Shown piece after piece: positions 5,826-61,006 of a DNA stretch of 64,000 bases. Position 1 is the first letter of the stretch. The number at the start of each line of letters is the position of its first letter. A model generated the notes under the pieces. That model had not been told where the DNA came from. It ran no database searches and saw only the letters and a program-made list of their open reading frames with translations. Position numbers and translations under genes: made by a program. The DNA is from Syntrophobotulus glycolicus DSM 8271 (lineage in GTDB: Bacteria; Bacillota; Desulfitobacteriia; Desulfitobacteriales; Syntrophobotulaceae): positions 1,364,001 to 1,428,000 of the forward strand of contig NC_015172.1 in assembly GCF_000190635.1 (NCBI RefSeq), read 5' to 3'.

Positions 5826-5954
5826 TTCCTGTTTGCAAATTATCAATTGTGAAAACAGTCACTTTGACGTATATTATAATTGAAATAATCTAATAATTGA
5901 TATTACTTTAACGTTAAGGCTCTTTAACGGACCGGTTGGAAGGGATGAACACTG

Positions 5955-7112
5955 GTGGCTGCAACATTAAAAAACTTATGCAAATATGCCAGGGAAAACT
6001 ATGGAATGAATCTGATCTGCGGGGAAAGCAATATGAACAATTTGGTCAATTGGGTTCATATGCTGGAAGACCCGGAGACAGCCGGTTTTCTTCATGGCCA
6101 GGAGCTTATTTTTTCCACAGGAATCGGACATCGCAATACGGAATGGCTGTTGGAATTTGCTAAAGGACTGGTGGAACATCAGGCCAGCGGCTTGGTTTTG
6201 AATATTGGCCCGTATATCGAATCAGTACCTGAAGATCTGATTCGCTTTTGCCGGGAAGTTCGTTTCCCACTATTTACCATACCGTGGAAGACCAGAATTG
6301 TTGACATCACAAACGATTTCTGCCGTAAAATTATAAAATCTGAAGAAAATGAAGTTACGGTCGCCAGCGCGTTTCGCAATGCCATCTTTTTTCCGGAGCA
6401 GGGAGCCGAATACCGCCCTGTATTAGAACGCAGGGAATTCGATTTGGAGACGGATTTTTGTGTTCTGGCCATCTCAATCCGGGGCATTTCCAATGAAGAT
6501 TATCCGGAATATGATAAAATAGTGAGACTGAAGTTTACGCGGATATTCGTTAACCATAGCGACAGGTTCAATATTTTCAGGCAGGATAAAAATTTAATCG
6601 CTGTCTTGCAAAATTTTGACCCTGATTTTATCGAAAAAGCAGTGGATACGCTGCACGAAGAGCTGAAATACGGCTATCCTGACTGTAAAATTAACATCGG
6701 AATCAGCTTTAACGGACAAGGGATTACCTCTCTGGCCAGAAATTACAAAAGAGCGACAGCACTGGCGCGGATCGCTGAAAAACAGGATAAGGTCAAGCTT
6801 TCATACCAAAATATCGGATTATATCAGTTGCTGATCGAAGTTGAAGATCCGAAAGCATTGAGAAAATTTTACGAAGATACCCTTGGGAAACTGGAATCCT
6901 ACGATCTGAAATATAAGACCGATTATGTGGCCACCTTAAAGAACTATCTGGACAATAACGCAAGTGTGCAAGAGGTGGCCAAAGAAACCTTCGTCCATCG
7001 CAACACCATTAATTATAAGATCAAAAAAATAAAAGAACTGCTCCAGTCTGAGCTGAATTATCAAGACGGTCTGAAGCTTCTTTTGGCTTATTATGTCAGG
7101 GAATTGTTATGA
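5955..7112 (+). CDS. PucR family transcriptional regulator
   Basis: The start is GTG 5955, with GAAGGG upstream; the ATG at 5936 is in another frame. The protein is 385 residues. The first 130 residues form the PucR N-terminal ligand-sensing domain (FLHGQELIFSTG, ASGLVLNIGPYI). The middle is a GGDEF-like CdaR domain (INIGISFNGQGITSLARNYKRA). The end is the PucR/HTH_30 helix-turn-helix (FVHRNTINYKIKKIKELL). PucR-type proteins regulate purine and related nitrogen catabolism. Its position just before a pyrimidine-type catabolic cluster makes it the probable local activator. Confidence 0.85.
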   Translation: MAATLKNLCKYARENYGMNLICGESNMNNLVNWVHMLEDPETAGFLHGQELIFSTGIGHRNTEWLLEFAKGLVEHQASGLVLNIGPYIESVPEDLIRFCREVRFPLFTIPWKTRIVDITNDFCRKIIKSEENEVTVASAFRNAIFFPEQGAEYRPVLERREFDLETDFCVLAISIRGISNEDYPEYDKIVRLKFTRIFVNHSDRFNIFRQDKNLIAVLQNFDPDFIEKAVDTLHEELKYGYPDCKINIGISFNGQGITSLARNYKRATALARIAEKQDKVKLSYQNIGLYQLLIEVEDPKALRKFYEDTLGKLESYDLKYKTDYVATLKNYLDNNASVQEVAKETFVHRNTINYKIKKIKELLQSELNYQDGLKLLLAYYVRELL

Positions 7113-7204
7113 TGTGCATAAGCACAACAGATTTTGTGCTGAAATCTGTTGAATCGAAAAGTAAAAATGATAAGATAAAACCATTCTAAGTGAAAAACGA
7201 AGGC

Positions 7205-7240
7205 AAAGGGGCCTGTTCTAAGAACAGGTCCCTTTGTTTG
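7205..7240 (+). terminator. Strong hairpin between regulator and catabolic genes
   Basis: AAAGGGGCCTGTTC pairs with GAACAGGTCCCTTT over 14 bases with one G-U pair and a TAA loop, followed by GTTTGATC. It may terminate the pucR transcript or attenuate entry into the catabolic operon. Confidence 0.65.
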
Positions 7241-7262
7241 ATCTAATGAGGTGAAAGAAAAA

Positions 7263-8600
7263 GTGGAACTTGAACTCACAACAGCGAAGGAAATCGTGGA
7301 GACATCCCAAAAATATAATTTGCATGCCTGGACCGTTCAAGGGTCGTCAAAACCCTTAACCATGATCGGCGGGGAGGGCATTTACTTCTGGGATGGCGAA
7401 GGGAAACGCTACTATGATATGTCTTCCCAGCTTGTCAATCTGAATATCGGGTACGGGAACAGCAAGGTCATCAAAGCCATTCAGGAACAGGCGGAAAGAC
7501 TTGCCTATTCTTCCCCCTCTTTTGCCATTGACGTCAGGTCCCAGTTAGCAAAAATGGTTGTCGAGCTGGCGCCGGACAATATGGGCAAAGTGTTTTTCAC
7601 CCTGGGCGGTTCGGACGCCAATGAGAACGCGATCAAGATTGCCAAGATGGTCACCGGGAGATATAAAATCTTTTCCCGCTATCTTTCTTATCATGGCTCA
7701 TCTTACGGAGCGGCGAACCTGACGGGAGAACCGAGACGGTATACTTGCGAACCGGGGATTCCGGGATTTATTAAGTTCTTTGATCCCTATGTCTATCGCT
7801 CCCCGGTTCCTTTCGCCGATGAAGAAGCTGCCAGTCACTATTATTTGCAACAGCTCAGAGACCAGGTGATTTATGAAGGCCGGGATGCCGTGGCCGCGAT
7901 TGTGGTGGAAACCATCACCGGCAGTAACGGAGTGATTATTCCCCCCAAAGGATATCTAAACGGAATTCGCCGGATCTGTGATGAATTCGGAATCATGATG
8001 GTATGCGACGAAGTGATGACCGGATGGGGCAGGACCGGAGAATGGTTCGCGATCAATAATTTTGATGTTAAGCCGGACATCATTACCTTTGCCAAAGGGA
8101 TTACCTGTGGATATGCGCCCATCGGGGGCGTGATTGTGAGCAAAGAAATCGCCTCCTATTTTGATGACCGGTTCTTAAACTGCGGTCTGACCTATTCGGC
8201 GCATCCGCTTGGCTGTGCCGCCGGCATAGCGACCATCGAGTACTATCAAGAGACAGGTCTGATTGCCCAGGCCAAAGAACGCGGCGTCCTGTTAGGCCGT
8301 ATTCTGGAAGACCTGAAAGAAAAGCATGCCTGTGTGGGCGATGTGCGTTATATTGGCTTGTTCTCAGCAATCGAGCTGGTCAAGAATAAAGAAAGCAAAG
8401 AGCCCCTAGTGGAGTTTGATCATGATCCGGACAAGGTCATGAGTAAAATCATCGGGACGCTTTGTGCCAGGGGTTTCTTCACCTATTCGCACGAAAATAC
8501 AATCATGGTGGCGCCGCCGCTTATTATCACGGAGCAAGAGCTGGAAAGCGCCATGGCGATTATGGATGACGTCTTGGGTGAAGTGGATAAATCCTTATAG
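7263..8600 (+). CDS. Class III aminotransferase, probable beta-alanine transaminase
   Basis: I take GTG 7263, nine bases after AGGTG; the GTG at 7251 overlaps that site. The protein is about 445 residues, usual for PLP fold type I omega-transaminases. Visible landmarks are FFTLGGSDANENAIK (phosphate binding), YHGSSYGA, the cofactor aspartate in VCDEVMTGWGRTG, and the PLP lysine in ITFAKGITCGYAPIGG near residue 278. The family includes beta-alanine-, taurine- and GABA-pyruvate/2-oxoglutarate enzymes. Next to dihydropyrimidinase and a malonate-semialdehyde-type reductase, beta-alanine is the likely amino donor, giving malonate semialdehyde. Taurine is the main alternative. Confidence 0.8.
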   Translation: MELELTTAKEIVETSQKYNLHAWTVQGSSKPLTMIGGEGIYFWDGEGKRYYDMSSQLVNLNIGYGNSKVIKAIQEQAERLAYSSPSFAIDVRSQLAKMVVELAPDNMGKVFFTLGGSDANENAIKIAKMVTGRYKIFSRYLSYHGSSYGAANLTGEPRRYTCEPGIPGFIKFFDPYVYRSPVPFADEEAASHYYLQQLRDQVIYEGRDAVAAIVVETITGSNGVIIPPKGYLNGIRRICDEFGIMMVCDEVMTGWGRTGEWFAINNFDVKPDIITFAKGITCGYAPIGGVIVSKEIASYFDDRFLNCGLTYSAHPLGCAAGIATIEYYQETGLIAQAKERGVLLGRILEDLKEKHACVGDVRYIGLFSAIELVKNKESKEPLVEFDHDPDKVMSKIIGTLCARGFFTYSHENTIMVAPPLIITEQELESAMAIMDDVLGEVDKSL

Positions 8601-8643
8601 AAATCGGTTACGTACTCTGCTTGGACGGAAATGGGGAGGAAAA

Positions 8644-9768
8644 ATGATCAGCAACTACTATATGCCGACCAAAGTCCTGATGGGATCTGATTGTGTTGTC
8701 AGGAATTCCGGGCTCTTGAGACAGCTCGGCAGGAAAGCGCTGCTTGTCACCGGCAGGCAATCAGCCAAACAAAACGGTTCGGAAAAGGATATGAAAGAAG
8801 CTTTGGGTTCAGCAGGAATAGAGTATGCAGTATTTGACCGGGTCATGAGCAATCCCACCATTGCCTGTGTTTATGAAGGGGCGGCTTTGGCCCGGGAGAA
8901 CAAGGTAGATTTCATTATCGGGATTGGGGGAGGTTCTCCCATGGATGCGGCAAAAGCGATCGCCCTGCTCGCGGCTCAGGATATTGAGGAGCAAGACTTA
9001 TTTAGCGGAAATTATCCAAACAAAGTTCTTCCGATGGCCTTTGTGCCGACCACTGCCGGCACAGGCTCGGAAGTCACCCCGTATTCCATCCTGACCAATG
9101 ATCAGGCCCAAACCAAGACCAGTATTGCCTCGGAATTCTTATTTCCCAGGATGGCCTTTTTGGATGCCAGGTATACCCAGTCTCTTTCTGCGGTGACCAC
9201 AATAAACACTGCGCTGGACGCCTTGTCCCATGCGGTGGAGGGAATGTTATCCGTGAAAGCCTCAAGGATATCCGACGCCCTGGCGATCAACAGCATTCGG
9301 ATGATCATGGAGTGTATGCCGGCCCTGCGGGAGAGCTTCAAAGCGGGAGATCCCGGCAAAGTTGATTTAAGGCAAAGGGAAATTCTGCTTCAGGCCTCCC
9401 TCATCGCCGGTATGGTCATCGCCCAAACAGGAACTACTGTGGTCCATGCCATGGGCTATTCCCTGACCTATTTTCATGATATTGATCATGGCAGAGCCAA
9501 TGGCTTGCTCTTAGCGGAATACCTCAAATTGGTGGAACAGGAAAACCCGGAATTGGCCGGCAGGATATTGACAGGAATGAATTTTTCCACAGCGGAGGAG
9601 TTTAAAGCGTTGACAGATGAGCTTTTGGGGCATAAAGAAGCGCTGACGGAAAAAGAAATCATGGAATACAGCCGGAAAACCCTGAAAACGAAAAATATGG
9701 ACAATTGCCTGGTAAAACCGGATCAGGAGGAAATCGAACAGATCTATGTCAGCTCCTTTCAATCATAA
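8644..9768 (+). CDS. Iron-type alcohol dehydrogenase, probable malonate semialdehyde reductase
   Basis: The start is ATG 8644 after GGGGAGGAAAA, giving 374 residues as usual for group III dehydrogenases. The NAD(P)-binding loop IGIGGGSPMDAAKAIA, the TTAGTGSEVTPYSIL segment, and metal ligands in DALSHAVEG, VVHAMGYSL and FHDIDHGRANG are all present. It would reduce an aldehyde to an alcohol. Following the aminotransferase, the simplest reading is malonate semialdehyde to 3-hydroxypropionate; sulfoacetaldehyde to isethionate is the alternative if the aminotransferase acts on taurine. Confidence 0.82.
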   Translation: MISNYYMPTKVLMGSDCVVRNSGLLRQLGRKALLVTGRQSAKQNGSEKDMKEALGSAGIEYAVFDRVMSNPTIACVYEGAALARENKVDFIIGIGGGSPMDAAKAIALLAAQDIEEQDLFSGNYPNKVLPMAFVPTTAGTGSEVTPYSILTNDQAQTKTSIASEFLFPRMAFLDARYTQSLSAVTTINTALDALSHAVEGMLSVKASRISDALAINSIRMIMECMPALRESFKAGDPGKVDLRQREILLQASLIAGMVIAQTGTTVVHAMGYSLTYFHDIDHGRANGLLLAEYLKLVEQENPELAGRILTGMNFSTAEEFKALTDELLGHKEALTEKEIMEYSRKTLKTKNMDNCLVKPDQEEIEQIYVSSFQS

Positions 9769-9821: not shown

Positions 9822-11132
9822 ATGGAAACGATACAAGAAACAATAACCAAATTGGCGGAAGAATTAAAACCGGCGCTTGTGGATTTTTGTCAGAGACTGA
9901 TTCGGGTTCCGGCGCTCTCCGGAGCGGAAAAAGGGGTTGCGGACCTCTATCTGGCCGAAATGGAGAAATTGGGATATGACCGGTATTTCCGGGACAAGTG
10001 GGGAAATGTAATCGGAATCATCGAGGGAACGGAGCCGGGACCGGCCATTATGTATAACGCCCATCTGGATCACGTTGACACAGGGGATTACAGTGAATGG
10101 GGCGGCTATGATCCGTACGGGGCGGAAATTGACGTGAATGAAATGGAAAATCAGGACCGGGACGGCTATGAGCAGGCTGAAGTCATTCATGGCAGAGCGG
10201 CGGCCGATGTGAAGGGCGGAGGCGCCTGTCAGATTTATTCCGGAAAAATCATGATCGAACTTCGGAAATTGGGCTATCCCATAAAAGGGAGATATATTTT
10301 TACCGGTGTTGTTTTGGAGGAACCGGCTGAACAGCTGGGCATGATCAAACTCATCGAGGATACGTTCCCGGAAGAGGGGATTGACTATGACGGGGTTGTT
10401 TCCTGTGAAGCAACGTCTCTGAAGCTCTACCTGGGGCACCGGGGAAGAGTGGAGCTGCAAGTAACGGTTTCCGGCACAACTTCTCACGGCAGCGCGCCCT
10501 GGCTGGGGGTTAACGCCGTGAACAAAGCCACCAAATTGATTGACAGGGTCGAGGAATCTATCGCCGCCCAGCGCCGGACAGATGAGCATTTGGGAAATTC
10601 CAGCATTGCTTTGACCATTATTAACTGTACACCCGGTTCCATGTGTATCGTCCCCGACAGGTGCCACATTACGTATGACCGCCGCTTTGTGCCCGGGGAA
10701 ACCTTTAAGGGCTGTGTTGAGGAGATTCAGAAGATTATTGACGGTCTGACAGAAGAGGACCCTGAGTTCAGGGCAGCCGTAGAGATCGCCACCGTACCGC
10801 GAACCACCTATACCGGGCTGACGGTTGCTGTGCCGAACGTCAAGCAGGCCTGGAAGATCAGTCCCGAGCACCCGTTTGCCAAAGCGGCGGCCGCTGGGCT
10901 CAGCTCGATAGGACAGCCGGTAAAATACGGCTATTGGGATTTCGGCACTGACCTCTCCGTCATCTGCGGCCGGGAGAAAAAACCGGCAATCGGTTATTCG
11001 CCCATGCAGGAATTTTATTGCCACAGGCCCGTGGATAAAGTCAGAATCGACTATATGGTGAAAGCCCTGGCGGGAAATGTGGCCATTTATCAAGAACTGA
11101 CAGCCTTAGAACAAAAGGATTTCATTCTTTAA
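9822..11132 (+). CDS. M20 family metallohydrolase (YgeY-like), first copy
   Basis: A 436-residue protein starting at ATG 9822 after GGGGAGG. Zinc ligands lie in NAHLDHVDTG (His81, Asp83) and RAAADVKGG (Asp129), with the catalytic and ligand glutamates in LEEPAE (166-167). The dimerisation domain segment TSHGSAPWLGVNAVNKA is present. The sequence resembles the YgeY group seen beside hydantoinase/dihydropyrimidinase genes. It is a candidate beta-ureidopropionase (N-carbamoyl-beta-alanine amidohydrolase), releasing beta-alanine, CO2 and ammonia. The close paralog downstream may share or divide this role. Confidence 0.78.
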   Translation: METIQETITKLAEELKPALVDFCQRLIRVPALSGAEKGVADLYLAEMEKLGYDRYFRDKWGNVIGIIEGTEPGPAIMYNAHLDHVDTGDYSEWGGYDPYGAEIDVNEMENQDRDGYEQAEVIHGRAAADVKGGGACQIYSGKIMIELRKLGYPIKGRYIFTGVVLEEPAEQLGMIKLIEDTFPEEGIDYDGVVSCEATSLKLYLGHRGRVELQVTVSGTTSHGSAPWLGVNAVNKATKLIDRVEESIAAQRRTDEHLGNSSIALTIINCTPGSMCIVPDRCHITYDRRFVPGETFKGCVEEIQKIIDGLTEEDPEFRAAVEIATVPRTTYTGLTVAVPNVKQAWKISPEHPFAKAAAAGLSSIGQPVKYGYWDFGTDLSVICGREKKPAIGYSPMQEFYCHRPVDKVRIDYMVKALAGNVAIYQELTALEQKDFIL

Positions 11133-11165
11133 CATAGAGTATTTGGAAGAAAGGTGGGAAAGAAA

Positions 11166-12497
11166 ATGAACGGATCAGAGCAGAACCTGATTGAGGCGCT
11201 GAAAGAGATTGCGGATGAACTTTATCCCAACATGATATTTTTCGCCCAGAAACTGGTTCAGACCCCAAGTATCAGCGGCACGGAGGGGAAGCTGGCCGAC
11301 TTGGATATCGCTGAAATGCAAAAGCTCGGCTATGATGAAGTTTTTCGGGACGCCCAGGGAAACATCGTCGGTGTCGTCAACGGGACGGAACCGGGACCGA
11401 CAATTATGTATAATTCTCACATGGATCATGTGAGCCCCGGAGATCCGGCCAATTGGCTGGGCTATGACCCCTATGGGGGAGAAATTGATGTCTGTGCGGT
11501 GGATACCCGGGACAAAAAGCCCGATCAGGCGGAATGTATTCACGGACGGGGAGCCTCGGATGTCAAGTGCGGGGAAGCGGTGCAAATTTATACGGGAGGT
11601 CTGCTTTTGAAACTGCGGGAGAAAGGATTCCCCCTGAAAGGCAGGTTCCTGTTTACCGGGGTTGTGCAGGAGGAGCCGGCCGAAATGGTAGGAATGCTGC
11701 ATTTGCTTGACCAGACATTTCCCGCCAAAGGACTGACGTATGATGCCATGGTTTCCTCAGAAGCCACTTCTTTAAAAATTTACTGCGGACACCGGGGCCG
11801 CGTGGAAATGCTGATCACGGTTTACGGCCGGACATCACACGGCAGTGCCCCCTGGCTGGGCGTTAATGCCATTTATAAAGCGCTGCCGCTCATCACCAGA
11901 ATCAAAGACGAACTTTATCCGTCTCTGCCAAGTGATCCTGAGCTGGGACAGGCTTCCGTTTCCCTTAATATTATTGAATGTTCCCCCGGCGCATTATCGA
12001 TTGTCCCGGACAGATGTATGCTTTCTCTGGACCGGAGGACCTTGCCCGGTGAAACAGCCGCTTCGGCCATTGCCCAGATTCAGAAGATCATTGATGATTT
12101 AGCGGCCCAGGATCCGGAGTTCAGAGCTGATGTTGCGGTTAAAAGTGCCGTCGAAACATCTTATACAGGATTATCTTATGAGGCGGCCAAAGATATGGAT
12201 CCCTGGAAAATCAGCCCGGATCATGGATTTGTACAGGCTGCGGCGGCGGCACTGGAAGCCCTTGGCCAGAAGGTGGAATACGGGTACTGGGATTTTGGAA
12301 CGGACGCCAGCAAAACCTGCGGGATCGACAGAAAACCGACAATCGGCTATTCTCCCATGCAGGAACAATATGCCCACACCCCTTATGATAAATGCCGCAC
12401 GGATTTTATGAAAACCGCGTTGGAAGGCAATGCGGCAATTTATCTGAACGCAACCCTTCAGGGGCCTGAAACCTACAAAAAAGTTGAGTGGAAATAG
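11166..12497 (+). CDS. M20 family metallohydrolase (YgeY-like), second copy
   Basis: The start is ATG 11166, about ten bases after AAGGTGGG; GTG 11154 overlaps that site. The protein is about 443 residues and aligns along its whole length with the preceding gene: NSHMDHVSPGD, RGASDVKCGE, QEEPAEM, TSHGSAPWLGVNAIYKA, EYGYWDFGTD and GYSPMQEQYAHTP. The spacing of only about 30 bases and the shared architecture indicate tandem duplication followed by divergence. The metal ligands are intact, so it should be active. Substrate specificity may differ, for example different N-carbamoyl amino acids. Confidence 0.78.
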   Translation: MNGSEQNLIEALKEIADELYPNMIFFAQKLVQTPSISGTEGKLADLDIAEMQKLGYDEVFRDAQGNIVGVVNGTEPGPTIMYNSHMDHVSPGDPANWLGYDPYGGEIDVCAVDTRDKKPDQAECIHGRGASDVKCGEAVQIYTGGLLLKLREKGFPLKGRFLFTGVVQEEPAEMVGMLHLLDQTFPAKGLTYDAMVSSEATSLKIYCGHRGRVEMLITVYGRTSHGSAPWLGVNAIYKALPLITRIKDELYPSLPSDPELGQASVSLNIIECSPGALSIVPDRCMLSLDRRTLPGETAASAIAQIQKIIDDLAAQDPEFRADVAVKSAVETSYTGLSYEAAKDMDPWKISPDHGFVQAAAAALEALGQKVEYGYWDFGTDASKTCGIDRKPTIGYSPMQEQYAHTPYDKCRTDFMKTALEGNAAIYLNATLQGPETYKKVEWK

Positions 12498-12564
12498 CGC
12501 AGGCCCGGGACAAGGAAAATTTGTCACAGAATTTATCTTCGGAATCAGGTTAGGAGGTTGGAAG

Positions 12565-13935
12565 ATGGACTTGATCATCAAAAACGGCACAATTATTTCT
12601 CCTACTGAAACATATAAGGCGGATATCGCTGTTCGAGACGGAAAAATTTTGGCGATCGGCTCAGAATTTCCGGAAGCAGGCGCCAAAATAGTAGATGCCG
12701 CGGGCAAGCTTGTGCTGCCCGGAGCAATCGATGTGCATACGCATTTGGCCATGCCGTTTGGCGGAACGGTATCTGCGGACAGTTATTTTTCAGGAACAAG
12801 GGCGGCAGCCTGCGGCGGTGTGACAACTGTTTTTGACTATCCGGTACAAAGAAAAGGAAACACAATTTTAGGACTGATCAACGAAAAAAAAGAGATCTGT
12901 GCCCAAGAAGCCTGTGTCGACTACGCCTTTCATTGCTGTATTACTGATTTAAATGACGGCGCGATCTTGGAAGAAATGCAGAAAGCGGTTGAGGAAGGGA
13001 TTACAAGTTTTAAATGTTTCTTTGTGTATAAAAAAGAAGGCATGATGGTCGATGACGGAACCTTTGCCAAACTGCTTTTGCGTGCCAAAGAAATCGGAGC
13101 GATGATCAATATTCATGCGGAAAATCCTGATCTGATCGATCTGAAGATCGCGCAATTCAAAAAAGAGGGAAAGACCTCACCCTGGTATCATTATTTAAGC
13201 CGCCCGGAATTTGTGGAAGCCGAGGGAGACAAAAGGGCCATTCATTGGGCCAAGAATCTGGAAGCCCCTCTTTATCTTGTGCACATGGCGGATAAAGAAG
13301 GCCTGGAAGCCGCTATCACAGCCAAAACGGATGGATACGACATCTATGTGGAAACCTGTCCGCAATATTTGGAATTTACCAGTGAAGTTTATAAACGGGA
13401 AGACGGCCGGAATTTTGTCTGTTCCCCGCCCATGAAAGGGCAGGAAAGTCAGGACGCCTTATGGAAGGCGGTGAAGACAGGCGGGATCGACACGATCGCT
13501 ACGGATCACTGTCCGTTCCAAAGCGCTGAAAAGGATTGGGGCAAAGATGATTTTACGAAAATCCCCAATGGCTGTGCCGGTATTGAGAACATGTATCCTT
13601 ACATGCTGGCGGCCGCCAATGAAGGGAAGATCAGTTTTAACAGAGCAGTTGAGCTATGTTCCGCCAATCCGGCCCGGATATTCGGCTGTCAGGAAAAGGG
13701 CTCGCTAACAGTGGGCAAAGACGCGGATATCGTGATCTATGATCCGGAAAAAGACTTCACGGTTTCAGTGGCAACAATGCACTCTGACTATGATCATACC
13801 ATTTGGGAAGGCAAACAATTTCACGGTTATCCTGTGATGACGTTTTCTCGCGGCAGGTTGGTCTACGAAGAGGGAAAATTTGTTGGAGAAGCCGGCTGGG
13901 GGAATTTTGTCAAAAGAGCGGGCAGAGGGAAGTGA
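12565..13935 (+). CDS. Dihydropyrimidinase / D-hydantoinase
   Basis: ATG 12565 follows TAGGAGG; a longer frame from 12484 overlaps the upstream stop and lacks a site. The 456-residue amidohydrolase has the metal pair in DVHTHLAMPF (His58, His60), the lysine to be carboxylated in ITSFKCFFVYK (Lys150), His184 in INIHAENPD, a histidine in YLVHMADKEG, and the catalytic aspartate in IATDHCPF. These are the full binuclear zinc set of dihydropyrimidinase/hydantoinase. It would open 5,6-dihydrouracil or dihydrothymine to the N-carbamoyl-beta-amino acid. It lies between the M20 hydrolases and the dihydropyrimidine dehydrogenase. Confidence 0.88.
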   Translation: MDLIIKNGTIISPTETYKADIAVRDGKILAIGSEFPEAGAKIVDAAGKLVLPGAIDVHTHLAMPFGGTVSADSYFSGTRAAACGGVTTVFDYPVQRKGNTILGLINEKKEICAQEACVDYAFHCCITDLNDGAILEEMQKAVEEGITSFKCFFVYKKEGMMVDDGTFAKLLLRAKEIGAMINIHAENPDLIDLKIAQFKKEGKTSPWYHYLSRPEFVEAEGDKRAIHWAKNLEAPLYLVHMADKEGLEAAITAKTDGYDIYVETCPQYLEFTSEVYKREDGRNFVCSPPMKGQESQDALWKAVKTGGIDTIATDHCPFQSAEKDWGKDDFTKIPNGCAGIENMYPYMLAAANEGKISFNRAVELCSANPARIFGCQEKGSLTVGKDADIVIYDPEKDFTVSVATMHSDYDHTIWEGKQFHGYPVMTFSRGRLVYEEGKFVGEAGWGNFVKRAGRGK

Positions 13936-13947
13936 GGTTGATCACCT

Positions 13948-15456
13948 TTGCGGGAAACAATACGAAATCAATTTTCGGCCAAAAGTGAAGCGGATAGTTG
14001 TTTACTCTGCTATACGGCACCATGTACAGCAAACTGTCCGCACGGGCTGGATGCGGCAAAGCTGATTCGTTCCCTGCGTTTTAAACATATTCCTGGAGGA
14101 GCTGATTGGCCAAAGTGCGGTGATGTTTGCGGCCCATGCGAGTCCCAAGACTGTACGGAAGCCTGTCTGAGAGGAAAGATGGATCGTCCGGTCAGAATAC
14201 CTGAGCTCATCGAATATGTCAGGAATTTGGGTCAGAGTAAATTCAGATTACCGGGTAAAATAAATTTGGGAATTGAATTTTGCGGGATACCATGTGAGAA
14301 TCCGTTTTTCTTATCTTCTTCAGTGGTTGCCAGTAATTATACAATGGTAGCGAAAGCATTTGAGATGGGATGGGCAGGGGCGGTTTTTAAGACAATCGGA
14401 ACCTTCGTTCCGCAAGAAGTTTCACCAAGATTTTCCAGCATTGGCAAAGAAGGAAACTCTTTCAGCGGTTTCAAAAACATTGAGCAAATATCGGATCACA
14501 CGTTAGAAGAAAATTTGGAGTTTATGTCCCGACTCAAAAGGGATTTCCCGCATAAAGTGGTTGTCGCCTCCATTTTGGGTCAGGATGAAGAGGAGTGGAC
14601 ATTCCTGGCTCGAAAAGTCACTGAGGCTGGAGTGGACATCATTGAATGCAATTTTTCCTGTCCCCATATGACGGGAGAAGGGTTAGGGTCAGATGTGGGT
14701 CAAAGCCCTGAATTGGTCGCTTTGTATACAGCGGCAACCAGAAAAGGAACAGACTTGCCAATCCTGGCCAAAATGACCCCGAACATCGGGAATATGGAGA
14801 TTCCCGCTATCGCGGCCATGGAGAACGGAGCGACAGGAATCGCGGCGATTAATACCATAAAAAGCATTATGAATATCAATCTCGATGACTTTGTCTCGGA
14901 GCCGCGGGTAGACGGCAAATCCTGCGTCGGAGGGTATTCCGGCAAAACAGTCAAACCAATTGCCTTGCGTTTTATTCATGATATGAAAAAACATCCCAAA
15001 TTGAAAGAATGTCCGATCAGCGGTATGGGCGGGATTGAAACCTGGAGGGATGCGGCTGAATTCATCGCGATGGGCTGTGCCAACGTGCAAATAACAACTT
15101 CAGTCATGCAATACGGTTACCGAATAATTGAAGATTTCATTGACGGATTGACAGCATTTTTATCGGAAAAAGGATACCACTCGCTCCAGGAAATAATCGG
15201 ACTGGCTTTACCGAATGTTGTGCAGGCGGATCAATTAAACCGGAACTCCATCTCCTATCCGAAATTTGATTTCCATAAATGTCTTGGCTGCGGAAGGTGT
15301 TATCTATCCTGTTATGACGGCGGTCATCAAGCTTTGGAAATCGCCGAAGAAAACGGAAGACCGAAACTTATGCCCAAAAAATGTGTCGGATGTCAGCTTT
15401 GTACCTTTGTATGTCCGGCCGGAGCAATTTCTTCCAGTACAAGAGTGAACGCTTAA
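13948..15456 (+). CDS. preA: PreA-type dihydropyrimidine dehydrogenase with N-terminal Fe-S domain
   Basis: TTG 13948 lies eight bases or so after GTGAGG and gives 502 residues, about 90 more than E. coli PreA. The first 90 residues carry two cysteine sets (CLLCYTAPCTANC and CGDVCGPCESQDC) like the Fe-S domain at the start of PreT or mammalian DPD. Residues from about 105 to 415 form the FMN-binding TIM barrel (ECNFSCPHMTGEGLGSDVGQ, ISGMGGIETW). The end carries two ferredoxin motifs (CLGCGRCYLSC, CVGCQLCTFVC). It should reduce uracil or thymine. The FAD/NADPH half (rest of PreT) is missing from the protein and from this window. Confidence 0.87.
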   Translation: MRETIRNQFSAKSEADSCLLCYTAPCTANCPHGLDAAKLIRSLRFKHIPGGADWPKCGDVCGPCESQDCTEACLRGKMDRPVRIPELIEYVRNLGQSKFRLPGKINLGIEFCGIPCENPFFLSSSVVASNYTMVAKAFEMGWAGAVFKTIGTFVPQEVSPRFSSIGKEGNSFSGFKNIEQISDHTLEENLEFMSRLKRDFPHKVVVASILGQDEEEWTFLARKVTEAGVDIIECNFSCPHMTGEGLGSDVGQSPELVALYTAATRKGTDLPILAKMTPNIGNMEIPAIAAMENGATGIAAINTIKSIMNINLDDFVSEPRVDGKSCVGGYSGKTVKPIALRFIHDMKKHPKLKECPISGMGGIETWRDAAEFIAMGCANVQITTSVMQYGYRIIEDFIDGLTAFLSEKGYHSLQEIIGLALPNVVQADQLNRNSISYPKFDFHKCLGCGRCYLSCYDGGHQALEIAEENGRPKLMPKKCVGCQLCTFVCPAGAISSSTRVNA

Positions 15457-54181: not shown

Positions 54182-54544
54182 TCAGCTGTGGCATTCATGC
54201 TCATGGGCATGACAGGAATCACCGGAATCAAGCAAAGATCCGGCAAGCCAGCGAAGAGCCACTTCCTTAACATTTCCTGAACACCCCCGCACCACCTCAA
54301 TACCTGAAGCATGCAGCACATTAACGGCGCCTTGCCCCATATTTCCGGCGAGCAAGACTTTGACATCCATTTCTGACAGTGTTTTAGCGATATTTGATTT
54401 GCATCCGCAGCCCGCGGGAGAGGCAATGGTCTGCTCATCAAGTATTGCTTTGCGATTGGGGTCAACAGTGAAAATGGTATAGTACTCACAGTGACCAAAA
54501 TGGTCGTCAATGGAATTTTGACGAGACGGCAGGGCGATTTTCAT
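54182..54544 (-). CDS. NifX/NafY-like dinitrogenase cofactor family protein
   Basis: ATG 54544 is ten bases after GGAGG. The 120-residue protein has IALPSRQNSIDDHFGHCEYYTIF and NMGQGAVNVLHASGIEVVRG, the core of the NifB/NifX C-terminal domain family (MTH1175-like). A CGCK motif and a His/Cys-rich tail (SCHAHEHECHS) could bind metal. Small stand-alone members carry Fe-S or Mo-containing clusters or are of unknown role. It is divergent from an MBL-fold gene and shares its operator region. Confidence 0.82.
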   Translation of the reverse strand: MKIALPSRQNSIDDHFGHCEYYTIFTVDPNRKAILDEQTIASPAGCGCKSNIAKTLSEMDVKVLLAGNMGQGAVNVLHASGIEVVRGCSGNVKEVALRWLAGSLLDSGDSCHAHEHECHS

Positions 54545-54583
54545 GTTGAACATTCCTCCATTTTTTTCAGTGCCGGCAATTGA

Positions 54584-54643
54584 GTTATTGACATATGCCA
54601 TTTATAACCCTATTATAATCCATAAAGAGCATATGTCAATAAC
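54584..54643. promoter_or_regulatory. Divergent promoter with two identical operator sites
   Basis: GTTATTGACATATGC lies at 54584-54598 and its exact inverse at 54629-54643, 30 bases apart. TTGACA in each can act as a -35, with TATTAT/TATAAT between, so it serves both the NifX-like gene and the MBL-fold gene. The same motif recurs at two later promoters. Confidence 0.6.
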
Positions 54644-54700
54644 TGAAATGATTCGGCCGCGAGCTGAGCAGGATGACAGGGGCATAATTGAGGAGCGAGA

Positions 54701-55528
54701 ATGATGATCATTAAAACATTGGTGGAAAATACAGCGGTCTCGGATCAATTCGAAGCTGAGCACGGGTTAAGTCTTTATATCGAGACCAATCAGCATAAGA
54801 TCTTATTTGATTTAGGCGCCAGCAGCGTATTCATCAAAAATGCCCGCAAAATGAAGATTGATCTTGCCGGTGTTGATCTCGCTGTGATCTCTCATGGACA
54901 TTACGATCACGGCGGCGGACTGCGGGAGTTTTTGCGCATCAATGAGCGGGCTCAAATTTATTTAAAGACAAAAGCGTTTCAACAGCACTGCGGCCGTAAA
55001 GCTGACGGGGGAATTGAAGATATCGGTTTGGATGACAGCTTGCTGCCCAATGCGCGTCTGACCCTGGTTGAAAATGATTTGAACATAGGCAGCGAGCTTG
55101 AGCTCTTCGGCAATGTCAACGGCCGGAAATTCATGTCCTCACTAAACACGGACATGCTGATGAGGGAGGGCCGGGAGCTTGTCCCGGATAATTTCGCCCA
55201 TGAGCAAAACCTGCTCATCAAGGAAGAAGGAAAGACCCTGCTCATAGCCGGATGTGCTCATACAGGAATGGTCAACATATTAGAGCACCTTTTTACGCAA
55301 AAACAAATCATACCCAGCCATATCATAGGAGGATTTCATTTATACAGCAGGGCGAAAAAGCAAGCGGAGGAAGCGAAGACTGTTGAAGAGATAGGGAAAT
55401 ACCTGCACCAGACCGGTTTAAGATTTTATACCTGTCATTGCACCGGCCGGGATTCTTTTCAAATCCTGAAAACAATCATGGGAGATCATATTCAGTACTT
55501 GGCAGCCGGAAGCCAAATCGAAATCTAA
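54701..55528 (+). CDS. MBL-fold metallohydrolase (COG1237 type)
   Basis: The 275-residue protein starts at ATG 54701 or 54704. The metallo-beta-lactamase motif is VISHGHYDHGGGL, with LFDLGASSVFIKNARKM before it. Further ligands are in LLIAGCAHTGMVNI and IIGGFHLYS, and the C-terminal CHCTGRDSF. This group includes the methanopterin precursor RFA-P synthase-like proteins and is often found near NifX-like genes. The substrate is unknown. Confidence 0.82.
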   Translation: MMIIKTLVENTAVSDQFEAEHGLSLYIETNQHKILFDLGASSVFIKNARKMKIDLAGVDLAVISHGHYDHGGGLREFLRINERAQIYLKTKAFQQHCGRKADGGIEDIGLDDSLLPNARLTLVENDLNIGSELELFGNVNGRKFMSSLNTDMLMREGRELVPDNFAHEQNLLIKEEGKTLLIAGCAHTGMVNILEHLFTQKQIIPSHIIGGFHLYSRAKKQAEEAKTVEEIGKYLHQTGLRFYTCHCTGRDSFQILKTIMGDHIQYLAAGSQIEI

Positions 55529-55569
55529 AGAAGATCCAAATTGATGAACAGCAGGATTCAGCTCATTTG

Positions 55570-55610
55570 GTTATTGGCATTTGACAATAACTGAATGAGG
55601 GGTATAATTT
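55570..55610 (+). promoter_or_regulatory. Promoter with shared operator, flavin reductase operon
   Basis: GTTATTGGCATTTG (55570-55583) matches the divergent-promoter motif at 12 of 14 bases and forms GTTATTG/CAATAAC around eight bases. TTGACA (55581) and TATAAT (about 55603) give a promoter with 16-base spacing. Confidence 0.55.
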
Positions 55611-55700
55611 TTTTAAGAGATAAAAAAGGGAAGGGGGGATTAGCGGCCGGCAATACTTGTCCCGGGCAGGACCCAACAATTTCAGATAGGAGAACTGGAA

Positions 55701-56201
55701 ATGAAAAAGACAGTGACCGATTTCAAAGGATGTTTAAAGCCGGTGCCGGATATTTTGGTATCCTGCAGAAACAAAGAGGGGAAGAATAACGCTTTGGCAG
55801 TAGCGTGTGCTTGCAATTGCAGTATGAATCCGCCAATGATTATGGCAGGGATTGTTCCCGGCAGGTATTCCTATGAATTCGTCAAAGAAACCGGAGTATT
55901 TGTTGTCAATCTTGTGACGGAGGAGTTAAGAACACAATATGCCTATCTTGGCAGCCACAGCGGCCGGGACGAAGACAAACTGGCAAAACTGGGAATGAAA
56001 ATCGGGGAAGGGGTAAAAATCAATGCCCCTATTTTATTGGATTGCCCTGTCAGTATCGAATGTACGGTAGTGGATTCCATAAAAACGGGAACTCACGAAA
56101 TGTTTGTCGGGAAAGTAGAATATATTCATGCCAAAGAAGAATTCATCTTAGAGAATGGGTCTGTTGATTATGCAAAGATCAACTTGCTGAAATTTCGTTA
56201 A
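55701..56201 (+). CDS. Flavin reductase-like, FMN-binding split barrel protein
   Basis: The 166-residue protein starts at ATG 55701 after TAGGAG. The pattern KPVPDILVSCRNKEGKNNAL, then MIMAGIVPGRYSYEFVKETG and FVVNLVTEELRTQY is the flavin reductase-like domain that binds FMN (flavoredoxin type). It likely transfers electrons to an oxidoreductase or oxygen. It shares the operator motif and probably a transcript with the following DUF1847 gene. Confidence 0.8.
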   Translation: MKKTVTDFKGCLKPVPDILVSCRNKEGKNNALAVACACNCSMNPPMIMAGIVPGRYSYEFVKETGVFVVNLVTEELRTQYAYLGSHSGRDEDKLAKLGMKIGEGVKINAPILLDCPVSIECTVVDSIKTGTHEMFVGKVEYIHAKEEFILENGSVDYAKINLLKFR

Positions 56202-56286
56202 TCGTTGAGATAAAGCGGATGAAACCCCGCGTGACCGGGAAAGCTCAAGCCTTTGGCAAAGAAAAAGGAAAAAGGGGGTTTGCAGC

Positions 56287-56946
56287 ATGAGCAAAGAAAC
56301 AAAGAGTCTGAGTTGTTCAGAGTGCGGAGTGGTCAATTGCTACAGGATGGAAAAAAAATTCCCGGAGTTCTGTCTGACAACAAATACCGATCATAAGCTG
56401 ATCCAGGAAACGAAAGAGCTCTATCAAAAAGATGAGTTTGTTTCGAAGTTGGCCCATGCAGCGGCAGAGATCGAAGGGACCTACTTTGGCAAGATTACGC
56501 GGGTGGAAGAGATCGTGCTGTTTGCCAAAAGAATTGGAGCAAAGAAGATTGGCATCGCCACTTGTGTAGGCTTAATGAATGAAGCGAAAATATTTGCCAG
56601 AATACTGCAGGCAAAAGGGCTGGAGAGCTATTGCGTGATCTGTAAAGTAAGCGCGACCGACAAAACAGAAATTGGGATAGACAAAAATCTCAAAATAAAA
56701 AAAGACTGTCATGAATCCTTATGTAATCCGGTCCTGCAGGCAAAGCTGCTGAATCAAGAAAATACGGATTTAAACGTGATCGTGGGGCTATGTGTCGGTC
56801 ATGATTCCATCTTCATGAAATATTCAGAAGCCCCCGTAACAACCCTGATCACAAAGGACAGGGTATTGGCCCATAATCCTGCCGGAGCATTGTACACCAC
56901 CGGATTTTACTATACCAGACTGCTGGAGACCGATAAGGACGAATAA
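56287..56946 (+). CDS. DUF1847 metal-binding protein
   Basis: The 219-residue protein starts at ATG 56287 after GGGGG. The cysteine set at the start (CSECGVVNCYRMEKKFPEFC), the IGIATCVGLMNEAKIFARIL segment, C in VICK and the KKDCHESLCNP motif are DUF1847 features. Eight or more cysteines suggest an Fe-S or zinc site. Function is not known. It is probably in an operon with the flavin reductase. Confidence 0.78.
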   Translation: MSKETKSLSCSECGVVNCYRMEKKFPEFCLTTNTDHKLIQETKELYQKDEFVSKLAHAAAEIEGTYFGKITRVEEIVLFAKRIGAKKIGIATCVGLMNEAKIFARILQAKGLESYCVICKVSATDKTEIGIDKNLKIKKDCHESLCNPVLQAKLLNQENTDLNVIVGLCVGHDSIFMKYSEAPVTTLITKDRVLAHNPAGALYTTGFYYTRLLETDKDE

Positions 56947-57048
56947 CCTGCTTTAACTTCAATGATGCCCTGGCAAAACAAATAGGCTTGAAGTAAGAAA
57001 GCCACGAAGTCATGGCGGCCCTCAGTAAAACAGTATTTGATTGAGAGT

Positions 57049-57078
57049 GTGGCGTAGCATAAAAGCTACGCCATTTCT
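57049..57078 (+). terminator. Hairpin after the DUF1847 gene
   Basis: TGGCGTAGC pairs with GCTACGCCA around a six-base loop. The following T-run is short (TTTCTTG). Confidence 0.6.
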
Positions 57079-57084
57079 TGTCTA

Positions 57085-57109
57085 AAGAAAAACACCTGCT
57101 AAGCAGGTG
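57085..57109 (-). terminator. Terminator of the MarR operon
   Basis: On the minus strand CACCTGC-TTA-GCAGGTG is followed by TTTTTC. It lies downstream of the marR-like gene. Confidence 0.6.
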
Positions 57110-57192
57110 GTAGGTATCTACGCATACTATTAAACATTTTTTCATAAAAAATCCTTCTTTCTGCTGATGAATTTTAGATTGTGGCATCCTCA

Positions 57193-57675
57193 TTACTGGA
57201 GCTGGTGAATTAGTTTTTGGGTTATTTGTTGAAATGCAGCCAATTCTTCTTTGTTCAAATCCCCAAGTATTTTAGCGGATTCATCAGCATGTGCTTTAAT
57301 AGCTTTCTTAACGACACTTTTCCCCTTATCAGATATAGTGGCAATAATACTACGTCCATCATCTGGTGCGGGAGTGCTTATAATAAATTCACTTTTTAAA
57401 AGCAAGTTTATTCGGTGGGTCATTGTTCCAGAAGCTACACCGGTGCGTTTTAACAATTCCTTTGGTGATAAGCCGCTTTCTCCTGCTTGGTATAAGATTA
57501 CCAACATATCATAACTCCAAGGCTCTAACTCAAAAGTTGCAAGTAGCTCTTTTCTTTTTTTCAGAATTAAGGTAGACATATGAGAGATGTTGAAAAGCAA
57601 ATGTATATTTACTACCTCGTCATTGTTTACAATAGTATTCCAAACGGAAGATTGGTTGTTTTTATCCTTGCCCAT
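57193..57675 (-). CDS. MarR family regulator
   Basis: The 160-residue protein has the winged helix GLSPKELLKRTGVASGTMTHRINLLLKS and wing STPAPDDGRSIIATISDKG. It ends an AT-rich three-gene minus-strand cluster, three bases after the HXXEE gene, and probably regulates it. No ligand can be inferred. Confidence 0.85.
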   Translation of the reverse strand: MGKDKNNQSSVWNTIVNNDEVVNIHLLFNISHMSTLILKKRKELLATFELEPWSYDMLVILYQAGESGLSPKELLKRTGVASGTMTHRINLLLKSEFIISTPAPDDGRSIIATISDKGKSVVKKAIKAHADESAKILGDLNKEELAAFQQITQKLIHQLQ

Positions 57676-57678
57676 TTT

Positions 57679-58200
57679 TTATTCTCCTTTTGCATAACAG
57701 GTAATCCATTGATCTATTCGTGGGGTCAACCAGTTTATAAATTTAAAGTTGCTGCCAATGATAATTAGAAGTATTGGAGAGCATAATAGCACTATATTCC
57801 ATTGGAGCAATTCAAGGCGGATGAAGGAATATATCACCCATGTGTATATAGGTAAGGTTAGTATACTTGTAATCAGCGAAGGGCAGTAACGCCGATAAAT
57901 GAAAAGCTCCAATATATGGCCCAAAAGATGAAAAGAATAAATACAGTAGAAAACCCAAATAAAAGAATATCCTTTCCAAAGTATAGCAGCAATCGAAAAA
58001 ACAGAAACCATAATAAATTCCTCAGCAATTAGTGCTGCAATTGTAGAGGAATTTGTATTTTTATAGCTCACAAAATAATGATTTTTCAAATGGTTATCTG
58101 TTTCTTTTCGTTTTAACCACGGCTTAATGAAAATAATTTCTTCAAACTCATGAAACATAAATGCGGCGAGTGCAACCATTATCATAAATGTAAAATCCAA
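57679..58200 (-). CDS. HXXEE domain membrane protein
   Basis: The 173-residue protein has about four to five helices. The HxxEE motif is in FMFHEFEEIIFIKPWLKR, and later EEF and HLLGHILELFIYRRY supply other conserved His/Glu. The family is of unknown function. It lies between a DUF6463 gene and a MarR gene. Confidence 0.78.
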   Translation of the reverse strand: MDFTFMIMVALAAFMFHEFEEIIFIKPWLKRKETDNHLKNHYFVSYKNTNSSTIAALIAEEFIMVSVFSIAAILWKGYSFIWVFYCIYSFHLLGHILELFIYRRYCPSLITSILTLPIYTWVIYSFIRLELLQWNIVLLCSPILLIIIGSNFKFINWLTPRIDQWITCYAKGE

Positions 58201-58233
58201 GTTATACTCCTTTCCAAAATTAGTTATGTGTCA

Positions 58234-58596
58234 CTACCGCCAAACAAGTAAAATTATAGATTGAATTAAAATCAACCATGAACCAGACTTGGGGGCAAAG
58301 ACCGTAGCTAAAATTCCTAACAACAAAAAACCAATACAGAATAGCAGTGGTAATTGCAAATTCATAACCCGAATGAGCCAATCCACCAAAACCCCAAGCA
58401 ACAACAAAGCCAATCCAGAAATCTCAAACCAGAAGAAAAGGTTAACATCATTGGGTATAGAAGCTGCATTATCATCTTTAATACTGGAAGATATGAGTTT
58501 AAATAAGAGAGGTCTATAATATAGTAGCCCGATAAAAAAATGCAATATGCTTGTTCCCATAATCGCTATTCCCGTATATGAATAAAGATATTTCAT
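58234..58596 (-). CDS. DUF6463-like small membrane protein
   Basis: The 120-residue protein has four hydrophobic segments starting YTGIAIMGTSILHFFIGLLYYRP. The pattern FFWFEISGLALLLLGVLVDW is typical of DUF6463. It heads the MarR/HXXEE cluster. Function unknown. Confidence 0.7.
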   Translation of the reverse strand: MKYLYSYTGIAIMGTSILHFFIGLLYYRPLLFKLISSSIKDDNAASIPNDVNLFFWFEISGLALLLLGVLVDWLIRVMNLQLPLLFCIGFLLLGILATVFAPKSGSWLILIQSIILLVWR

Positions 58597-58744
58597 GACA
58601 TCCCTCCTTGAAACAATCTCGATATCAAGATAAATGTACCGTATATTTCTTCATGCGTCAAGAGCAAGTGTGGAAACAGCTTGATGAAATGTTTATTATG
58701 CTATAATAATGGCAAATCCTATTTATAGATTGAGGGGTAAAAAC

Positions 58745-59242
58745 ATGCCAAGGCCGGTAAAATGGAGAAAAGTAGAATATATCCCGAATAACACTTATTT
58801 TGTTCCTTGCCCGAAGGGAAGCTGCAGAGAGTATTCTGATGTGAATGAGGTGCAAATCAAAATCGAAGAATTGGAAGCAATGCGCTTGAAAGATATAGAA
58901 GAGTTGTCTCAGGAGGAATGTGCCGAAAAAATGGAGGTTTCCAGACAGACGTTTCAGAATATCATTGATGAAGCCAGAAAGAAGGTTGTTTTCGCTCTGG
59001 TAGAAGGAAAGGCGATTTCCATCGGCGGCGGTCGCTACACAAAAAAAATATGCAGACTGAAATGTCTGAACTGCGGGAAAGAATTTGAGGCGTCTTTTGA
59101 GGAGGACCAGCAAAAATGCATAAATTGCGGTTCAGCTGAGCTCAGTTGTTTCAAAAAGGTCAATGGTCATAAGCATTGCCCCAAACAGTCCGGTGAATAC
59201 CCTGCTTCGGAAAAAAGGCTGGGGAACAGTCAGCTTGAATGA
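58745..59242 (+). CDS. DUF134 regulator with C-terminal zinc ribbon
   Basis: ATG 58745 starts MPRPVKWRKVEYIPNN; a longer frame from 58709 lacks a site. The 165-residue protein has the DUF134 sigma-70-like helix-turn-helix (ELEAMRLKDIEELSQEECAEKMEVSRQTFQNIIDEARKK). A zinc ribbon follows, with CLNCGKEFEAS and CINCG. It is probably a DNA-binding regulator. A second, shorter DUF134 gene lies 0.5 kb away. Confidence 0.83.
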   Translation: MPRPVKWRKVEYIPNNTYFVPCPKGSCREYSDVNEVQIKIEELEAMRLKDIEELSQEECAEKMEVSRQTFQNIIDEARKKVVFALVEGKAISIGGGRYTKKICRLKCLNCGKEFEASFEEDQQKCINCGSAELSCFKKVNGHKHCPKQSGEYPASEKRLGNSQLE

Positions 59243-59274
59243 CTGAATGGGGCCGCTCTGGTTCACGATCTGAA

Positions 59275-59319
59275 GAAAACCCACTTTACAATGAGCAGAT
59301 CAAAGTAAAGCGGGTTTTC
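59275..59319. terminator. Long-stem bidirectional terminator
   Basis: GAAAACCCACTTTAC and GTAAAGCGGGTTTTC pair over 15 bases with one mismatch and a 15-base loop. It lies between the DUF134 gene and a convergent small gene. Confidence 0.7.
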
Positions 59320-59345
59320 CAGATCCGATAAGCAACGATCACCGG

Positions 59346-59519
59346 CTAATCCTGATAACCGGATAATTGTTGATGTGCGGAGTGAAGCGAATTGATCGCT
59401 TGTTGAATTTTGTTTTTGTTGTCTAGCTTTTCGGCAGAATTCAGCGCCTGTTGTAATGTATTTACGCAGCTTTGAACTGAAGCCATACTCTGGTCAACGT
59501 ATTGTTTGGCTTTTGGCAT
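59346..59519 (-). CDS. Small helical protein of unknown function
   Basis: ATG 59519 follows AAAGGAGGTG, an excellent site, giving 57 residues. The product is two or three amphipathic helices (MPKAKQYVDQSMASVQSCVN, LNSAEKLDNKNKIQQAINSL) and no membrane segment. It resembles small Firmicute proteins of the spore or stress type, but no family is recognised. Confidence 0.65.
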   Translation of the reverse strand: MPKAKQYVDQSMASVQSCVNTLQQALNSAEKLDNKNKIQQAINSLHSAHQQLSGYQD

Positions 59520-59619
59520 ATGGGCACCTCCTTTCATCAGGAAAGTATTTCTGAAATAGCATCTGCACAAATTTAGATAAATATTCAGAACCAAAACCAA
59601 ATGCGGTTCAAAACGCAGT

Positions 59620-59652
59620 ATAATATAATCATAAAGGGTATATGTCAACAAC
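59620..59652. promoter_or_regulatory. Promoter with operator, second DUF134 gene
   Basis: TATAATATAAT at 59620-59630 is followed by GTATATGTCAACAAC (59638-59652). This is the inverse of the shared motif at 13 of 15 bases. An operator just after the -10 suggests repression, possibly autoregulation by the encoded DUF134 protein. Confidence 0.55.
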
Positions 59653-59677
59653 TTTCTTGTCTAAGAGGTGAAAAAAT

Positions 59678-60064
59678 ATGCCAAGACCGACAAAGGGCAG
59701 AAAGGTCTGCTGCCTGCCCGGAAGTAATCTTTTCGGCCCCCTCAAGCCCGGGCTTACCCAACCGGATATTTTAGTCATGTCTGTGGATGAGTATGAAACG
59801 ATCAGGCTGATTGACCTGCAGGGATTTACGCAGGAACAATGTGCCAATCAAATGCAGATTGCCCGGACAACAGCCCAGCGGATTTATAATAAGGCCCGAG
59901 AAAAGCTTGCCCAATCATTGGTGAACGGTAAGCTTCTGAAGATAGAGGGCGGTGATTATAAGCTGTGTAACGGGCAGGAAAACACATGCGCCTGCGGAGG
60001 CTGCCGCAGACACCGGTGCAGCAGTGCTTTTGCGGATGACGGCAGCTGCCGGGACAGGGAATGA
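59678..60064 (+). CDS. DUF134 regulator (short form)
   Basis: The 128-residue protein starts at ATG 59678 after AGAGGTG. It has [20 protein letters not shown], then the sigma-like helix-turn-helix [40 protein letters not shown] and a Cys-rich tail [11 protein letters not shown]. The Cys-rich end may sense metal. It lies 85 bases before modD and probably shares its transcript. Confidence 0.83.
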
Positions 60065-60148
60065 TATCCCGGAAGGTTTGTCCGAAACGGCAAAGGGTCT
60101 GCTGCTTGCTGCTCAAAATCAATGGGGTTTAAAAGGAGAGGTGATTCC

Positions 60149-61006
60149 GTGTTTATTACAGATGAAATGATTGACAGGCTGATCAAAGAAGATGTGCCAT
60201 ACTTTGATCTGACCACGTATGTATTGGATATCGGGAGGAGAAAGGGAAAGATCAGATATACTTCAAGACAAAGCGCTGTAATCAGCGGCACCGAAATCGT
60301 GGGAAGGGTGTTTGCCAAATTGGGAATAGACGCGGTAAACCTTCTTCCTTCCGGCACAAGAGTTGAAGCCGGGGATGTTCTGGCAGAGGGAGACGGCAAT
60401 ACGGAAAGCCTGCACATGGCATGGAAGGTAGGCATGAACATCTTAGAGTATTGCTCTGGAATCGCAACGAGGACAAGCAAGCTGGTACAGGCGGTAAAGA
60501 AAATCGATCCCAAAATAGAAATTGTGACAACCCGTAAAATATTTCCCGGAACTAAGGAACTTTCCATCAAAGCGGCCTTAGATGGAGGAGCCTTGCCTCA
60601 TAGACTGGGATTATCTGAAACCATACTGGTTTTCAAGCAGCATGCTGTATTTTTGGGAGGGATAAAGGGATTTTTAAGTCAATTAGAAGAGATCAAGCTT
60701 AAAGCCCGTGAAAAGAAAATAACGGTTGAGGTGGAGTGCAGGGAGGATGCAATAGAGTTATGCAAGGCCGGCATAGATGCTCTTCAGTTTGACAAGGTTC
60801 CGCCGGAAGAACTGAAGGAGATCATTGCGGATATCAGAAAAATTAATCCGGGCATCACATTGATCGCGACGGGGGGAATCAATGCCGATAATATCGAAAA
60901 GTATGCTTCAGCCGGTATTGATACGGTGAATACGTCATGGGTTTATTATGGAAAGCCCGTTGATCTTGGCGCCGAGATTACAGGAACAGACGCAAACGGG
61001 CAGTGA
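60149..61006 (+). CDS. modD: ModD-like quinolinate phosphoribosyltransferase homolog
   Basis: GTG 60149 follows GGAGAGGTG. The 285-residue protein has the nicotinate/quinolinate phosphoribosyltransferase fold (DVLAEGDGNTESLHMAWKVG, TTRKIFPGTKELSIKAALDGG, ATGGINADNIEKYASAGID). The ModD branch is associated with molybdenum transport genes, though its reaction is not settled. Being beside DUF134 and NifX-like genes supports a metal-related role rather than NAD synthesis. Confidence 0.8.
   Translation: MFITDEMIDRLIKEDVPYFDLTTYVLDIGRRKGKIRYTSRQSAVISGTEIVGRVFAKLGIDAVNLLPSGTRVEAGDVLAEGDGNTESLHMAWKVGMNILEYCSGIATRTSKLVQAVKKIDPKIEIVTTRKIFPGTKELSIKAALDGGALPHRLGLSETILVFKQHAVFLGGIKGFLSQLEEIKLKAREKKITVEVECREDAIELCKAGIDALQFDKVPPEELKEIIADIRKINPGITLIATGGINADNIEKYASAGIDTVNTSWVYYGKPVDLGAEITGTDANGQ

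Follow-up and report, generated by a model that had tools for sequence, protein, structure and literature searches.

Short DUF134 proteins with an ARTT-class recognition helix are, in our reading, autoregulating factors of COG1433/MinD-type ATPase/Mrp operons and allied genes, which they would repress in response to an Fe-S or metal-cofactor signal; we put the probability of this at about three in four. The proposal grew from an earlier note on the 64-kb window (the whole stretch of DNA that was analysed), which had described a shared operator centred on DUF134. The centring on DUF134 stood up to a survey of other genomes, whereas the unit turned out to be a pair of arms of about 60 bp with a promoter embedded in it and not a 14-mer. 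The earlier description had left out the TTGACA at -35, the pairing around the -10 box, and two further elements elsewhere in the genome. The main target of the regulon is one of these, a NifX/ATPase/Mrp (orange-protein-like) operon outside the window.

Architecture of the element

In an alignment of the elements, the 15-mer AGTTATTGACATATG turned out to form a single arm of the element and not a free-standing site. The layout is an arm, then a -10 box, then an inverted arm, with a TTGACA -35 hexamer inside the upstream arm and a spacer of 16 or 17 nt between TTGACA and the -10 box in most pairs. The gap between the arms varies (22 to 35), so that cooperative looping is not obvious. Beyond TTGACA itself, GTTA upstream, ATATG downstream, and the second inverted arm past the -10 box are conserved. 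Each arm is an imperfect palindrome of about 20 bp with the core TGACATATGTCA. One arm lies over the -35 TTGACA; the other would cover roughly the stretch from the transcription start to +20, and the two would overlap polymerase contacts near -40 to -20 and -3 to +20.

Sites and genes in the window

A full bipartite candidate operator-promoter element occupies 54583..54645, scoring 57.1 bits (-) and 41.7 bits (+) with profile R1, which was built from other species. It lies between a gene for a NifX-like (Nitro_FeMo-Co, COG1433-type) protein (54182..54544, -; PF02579, E=1.7e-23) and one for an MBL-fold metal-dependent hydrolase (54701..55528, +; PF00753), homologs of which occur within about 4 kb of DUF134 in 21/80 ARTT-class loci. 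Arm A (54583..54597, +) holds the -35 TTGACA of the MBL gene at 54588-54593, followed by a weaker -10. Arm B, the same sequence inverted (54630..54644, -), holds the -35 TTGACA of the NifX-like gene at 54634-54639 and, beyond a spacer of 16 nt, is followed by TATAAT at 54612-54617 (-). The two identical inverted 15-mers reported at this place are real, as are the weaker sites reported before the flavin reductase gene (12/14) and immediately past the -10 box at the second DUF134 gene (13/15, or 12/14).

The last of these belongs to an element at 59606..59654 (+; 29.9 bits, genome-wide E=1.7e-6), in which the -10 TATAAT (59619-59624) and the downstream arm (59639-59652, -) are intact, but decay has taken the upstream arm's outer half together with the -35. 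It precedes the short DUF134 gene, DUF134#2 (59678..60064, +; PF02001, 65.8 bits against a Pfam gathering cutoff of 27), which encodes an ARTT-class, possibly sigma4-like helix-turn-helix (HTH) and is the proposed repressor. A ModD-like gene of the NadC family (60122..61006, +, start possibly 60149; TIGR01334, E=3.4e-69) follows and is probably cotranscribed. The long DUF134 gene (58733..59242, +; PF02001, 72.9 bits against 27; recognition helix SRQTFQ) showed no element at its promoter. Its product has a zinc-ribbon-like tail, and within the family the long form often stands beside a short one (L048, L049).

Before the genes for a flavin reductase-like protein (55701..56201, +; PF01613) and a DUF1847 protein (56287..56946, +; PF08901) there is a lone 22-bp palindrome, GTTATTGGCATTTGACAATAAC (55570..55591), which matches the motif at 12/14 on either strand (55570-55583, +; 55578-55591 on the other). 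The motif has a background of about 21 matches per genome at 2 mismatches, so a chance match in this particular intergenic region is unlikely; across the window, 9 matches at 3 mismatches were found against 4.5 expected, a number reached in 2/100 shuffles and thus mildly above chance. The palindrome is not conserved. It gave no match when the other-species profile was searched over this genome, the motif is absent from the promoters of flavin-reductase homologs in 12 other genomes, and in G021 a CATATG site lies 3′ of the homolog, not 5′. We regard it as a weak candidate for a single operator, given that the homologs are without the motif. In G088/L252, a DUF1847 homolog lies behind a gene for a DUF134-NifX fusion. 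Of the genes that the earlier note lists as controlled, the NifX-like, MBL, and short DUF134 genes have profile elements, the flavin reductase and DUF1847 genes are weak candidates with the lone palindrome, and ModD belongs solely by virtue of its position behind DUF134#2.

Further elements in the same genome

The exact 14-mer has only four copies in 3.41 Mb, which make up two inverted pairs, one between the NifX-like and MBL genes and one at the orange-protein (ORP)-like operon. When a profile built solely from other species' elements was searched over the 3.4-Mb genome, exactly four elements scored at E<1e-5, two of them at DUF134 genes: the ORP operon (5e-16), NifX/MBL (6e-15), a third DUF134 gene (4e-9), and DUF134#2 (2e-6). 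The next distinct place scored E=0.9.

The ORP-like operon lies 1.1 Mb from the window, in locus L053, where the pair at 9594-9654 precedes a gene for a small glycine-rich protein; a NifX-like gene, two ferredoxin-MinD ATPase genes, an Mrp/NBP35 gene, and a second NifX-like gene follow. The stretch 5921-9257 thereby unites in one operon the gene set that defines ORP/MrpORP operons, namely, a COG1433 protein, ferredoxin-type MinD ATPases, and Mrp/NBP35. A second, degenerate pair (14281-14342) precedes the third DUF134 gene (78.6 bits to PF02001). Between the two, at 9859-13311, are genes for DUF364 and a ModABC-like (molybdate/tungstate-type) transporter, a set without a paired element of its own. 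The genome holds two copies of ARTT-class DUF134, so either may serve any one site.

Recurrence in other genomes

Absence of the motif from ortholog promoters would have refuted the earlier note, and the motif proved to be present there. We fetched 80 ARTT-class DUF134 loci by protein, regardless of motif, from Clostridia, Negativicutes, Bacilli, Synergistaceae, and Anaerolineaceae, among others, and looked for inverted arms with at most 2 mismatches in 20 nt and a gap of 20 to 40. Such a pair lies upstream in 59 of the 80, compared with 0 in dinucleotide shuffles; 21 loci are without a full pair, about 9 of them without any exact arm. Nearly all pairs fall within about 600 bp upstream of DUF134, with distances to the start that cluster at about 20 bp and about 350 bp. 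Approached from the other side, a scan for the pair only (gap, 20 to 40) matched 24 of 299 genomes of the phylum, and a reversed-pattern control matched 0. All 24 encode DUF134, against a background of 198/299 (p=3e-5), and in 17 the pair is within 1.5 kb of it. Like pairs adjoin DUF134 genes in order-level relatives, and in G034 (L233) DUF134 and the divergently oriented counterpart of the NifX gene in the window, its ortholog, have one element between them.

The genes at 20 motif-selected loci were glycine-rich (15/20), DUF134 (14/20), NifX (11/20), ATPase (9 to 10/20), and Mrp (9/20) genes. DUF134 is the recurrent DNA-binding gene among them, usually heading a NifX-ATPase-ATPase-Mrp operon. 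The small Gly/Arg-rich protein (MPxRDGxGPxGxGxxxGRGxGxC...) is often encoded by the first gene after the element (L239, L244-L257, L222, L226, L271).

The DUF134 protein as the putative binder

The short DUF134 is most likely the binder of the element and its own regulator, as its distribution with the pair suggests. Presence of the pair also follows helix class: among motif-blind loci, it was found in 5/8 ARTT-only loci, a small set, versus 4/50 SR-class loci. At their own promoters, several SRPTFF genes (L108, L109, L112, L113, L116, L127) have a variant, TTGACATAWGTTCATAA ... TTATGAACAWATGACC, that shares this geometry. DUF134-NifX (Nitro_FeMo-Co) fusions with the element at or beside the gene occur in L089, L101, and L102 (confirmed by Pfam in L089 and L102) and tie the regulator to NifX function.

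The best sequence and fold matches of the DUF134 HTH are sigma-70 region 4 and DeoR/SorC-type HTH domains (1ku7, 2h27, 7bhy). The Pfam matches to region 4 are weak (E=1e-6 to 8e-4), and the structural model (pLDDT 68.5) matches it at Z 6-7, the level of common HTH arrangements; since the C-terminal tail of the model is of low confidence, our statements about fold are limited to the HTH. Sigma-70 region 4 reads TTGACA, and TTGACA also lies within the DUF134-linked arm. The matches by sequence and model suggest that the DUF134 HTH may read it in the manner of a sigma factor. Unlike sigma factors, DUF134 is without the core-binding sigma regions and has a longer palindrome as its presumed target.

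Proposed mechanism and its alternatives

We suppose that a DUF134 dimer would sit on each arm and that occupied arms would exclude RNA polymerase, blocking the promoter at both ends. Repression is favored because both arms appear to overlap polymerase contacts and the promoters look strong unaided. The signal would most likely be the state of an Fe-S or metal cofactor, perceived through the conserved cysteines of DUF134 or, in the fusions, through the attached NifX domain. In the ARTT class, C11 and C97 are conserved at 100%, C109 at 96%, and C104 at 86%, although these residues could be structural zinc ligands instead of a sensor. Autoregulated one-component repressors that flank their own promoters offer a parallel, with two operators around -35 and +1; DUF134 would differ from them as a new DNA-binding family with a new, putative operator and metal-cofactor targets.

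One alternative, which we consider unlikely, is that DUF134 binds the same element as an activator or dual regulator, the upstream arm recruiting polymerase. Class II activators do act at the -35 region, which that arm overlaps, and DUF134 has a weak likeness to sigma region 4; however, a near-consensus TTGACA and TATAAT at 16 to 17 nt should need no help, and the second conserved arm falls past the -10 box, where binding blocks polymerase. It is less likely still that DUF134 is simply a target and that another factor, for example one of the CRP/FNR family, is the binder. Sites of this family resemble TTGAC-N4-GTCAA, a likeness shared by the core TTGACATATGTCAA, and in G131 the element has a CRP-like gene nearby. 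Against this, other regulators among the unlabelled neighbour families recur in at most 2 of the 20 motif-selected loci. A CRP/FNR-type binder was rejected, as G316 and G339 (98 to 99% complete) carry the pair without any cNMP-binding domain. Finally, TTGACA and a -10 box at good spacing might simply make up a strong and conserved promoter of the housekeeping kind, with no operator involved. This we find very improbable, given that a sigma-A promoter needs neither the GTTA and ATATG flanks nor the downstream inverted arm and that the element is confined to DUF134-linked genes.

Repression by DUF134 might be cast more widely, with the family acting as widespread Fe-S/metallocofactor-sensing repressors of anaerobes whose sigma-region-4-like helix reads TTGACA and rivals the sigma factor at the -35 of Mrp/ORP operons. 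We offer this tentatively and on balance lean against so broad a form.

Relation to known systems

The proposed regulators are, by profile, members of the DUF134/UPF0251/COG1342 family (PF02001). In the titles, abstracts, and passages covered from the open-access literature on DUF134, UPF0251, COG1342, and TTGACATATG, we found no operator, regulon, or regulation by DUF134. The whole word DUF134 occurs in two papers, neither of which has a title that concerns regulation; for a rex-deletion strain of Thermoanaerobacterium, a UPF0251 gene is listed as bearing an insertion. The target operon has like kinds of genes to the ORP/MrpORP operons of Desulfovibrio vulgaris, namely, those for COG1433 NifX/ORP-like proteins, MinD-type ATPases with ferredoxin motifs, and Mrp/NBP35 (PMC6345978). 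The two divergent ORP operons of that organism require sigma54 together with its cognate activator (PMC6345978 and its refs 19, 20), whereas here the promoters look sigma-A-like (TTGACA/TATAAT) and bear the DUF134-linked element. About two thirds of the phylum genomes sampled encode DUF134, and an operator, its architecture, and a predicted target operon are now proposed together for it. The proposal would also offer a mode of control, in many anaerobes, for an Fe-S/Mo-cofactor gene set that is poorly understood and that in Desulfovibrio is governed by sigma54.

In Desulfosporosinus-like genomes (L218-L228, L266), pairs lie in front of genes whose products look, from their sequences, like Hdr/Dsr-type Fe-S proteins and a ferredoxin, which is consistent with an Fe-S/metal signal; in two cases there is a 58-aa ORF that looks like a short DUF134 in an eroded state. 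At L242 (4228-4695), a pair lies ahead of a gene for an apparent Fur/PerR-type regulator, a hint that this kind of regulator and DUF134 may be connected. In relatives, long SRATFQ-class DUF134 genes (L028, L030, L032, L038, L042) share a near-palindrome, TTGAGCATATGCCCAA, immediately ahead of the ribosome-binding site; it may be an operator specific to their class.
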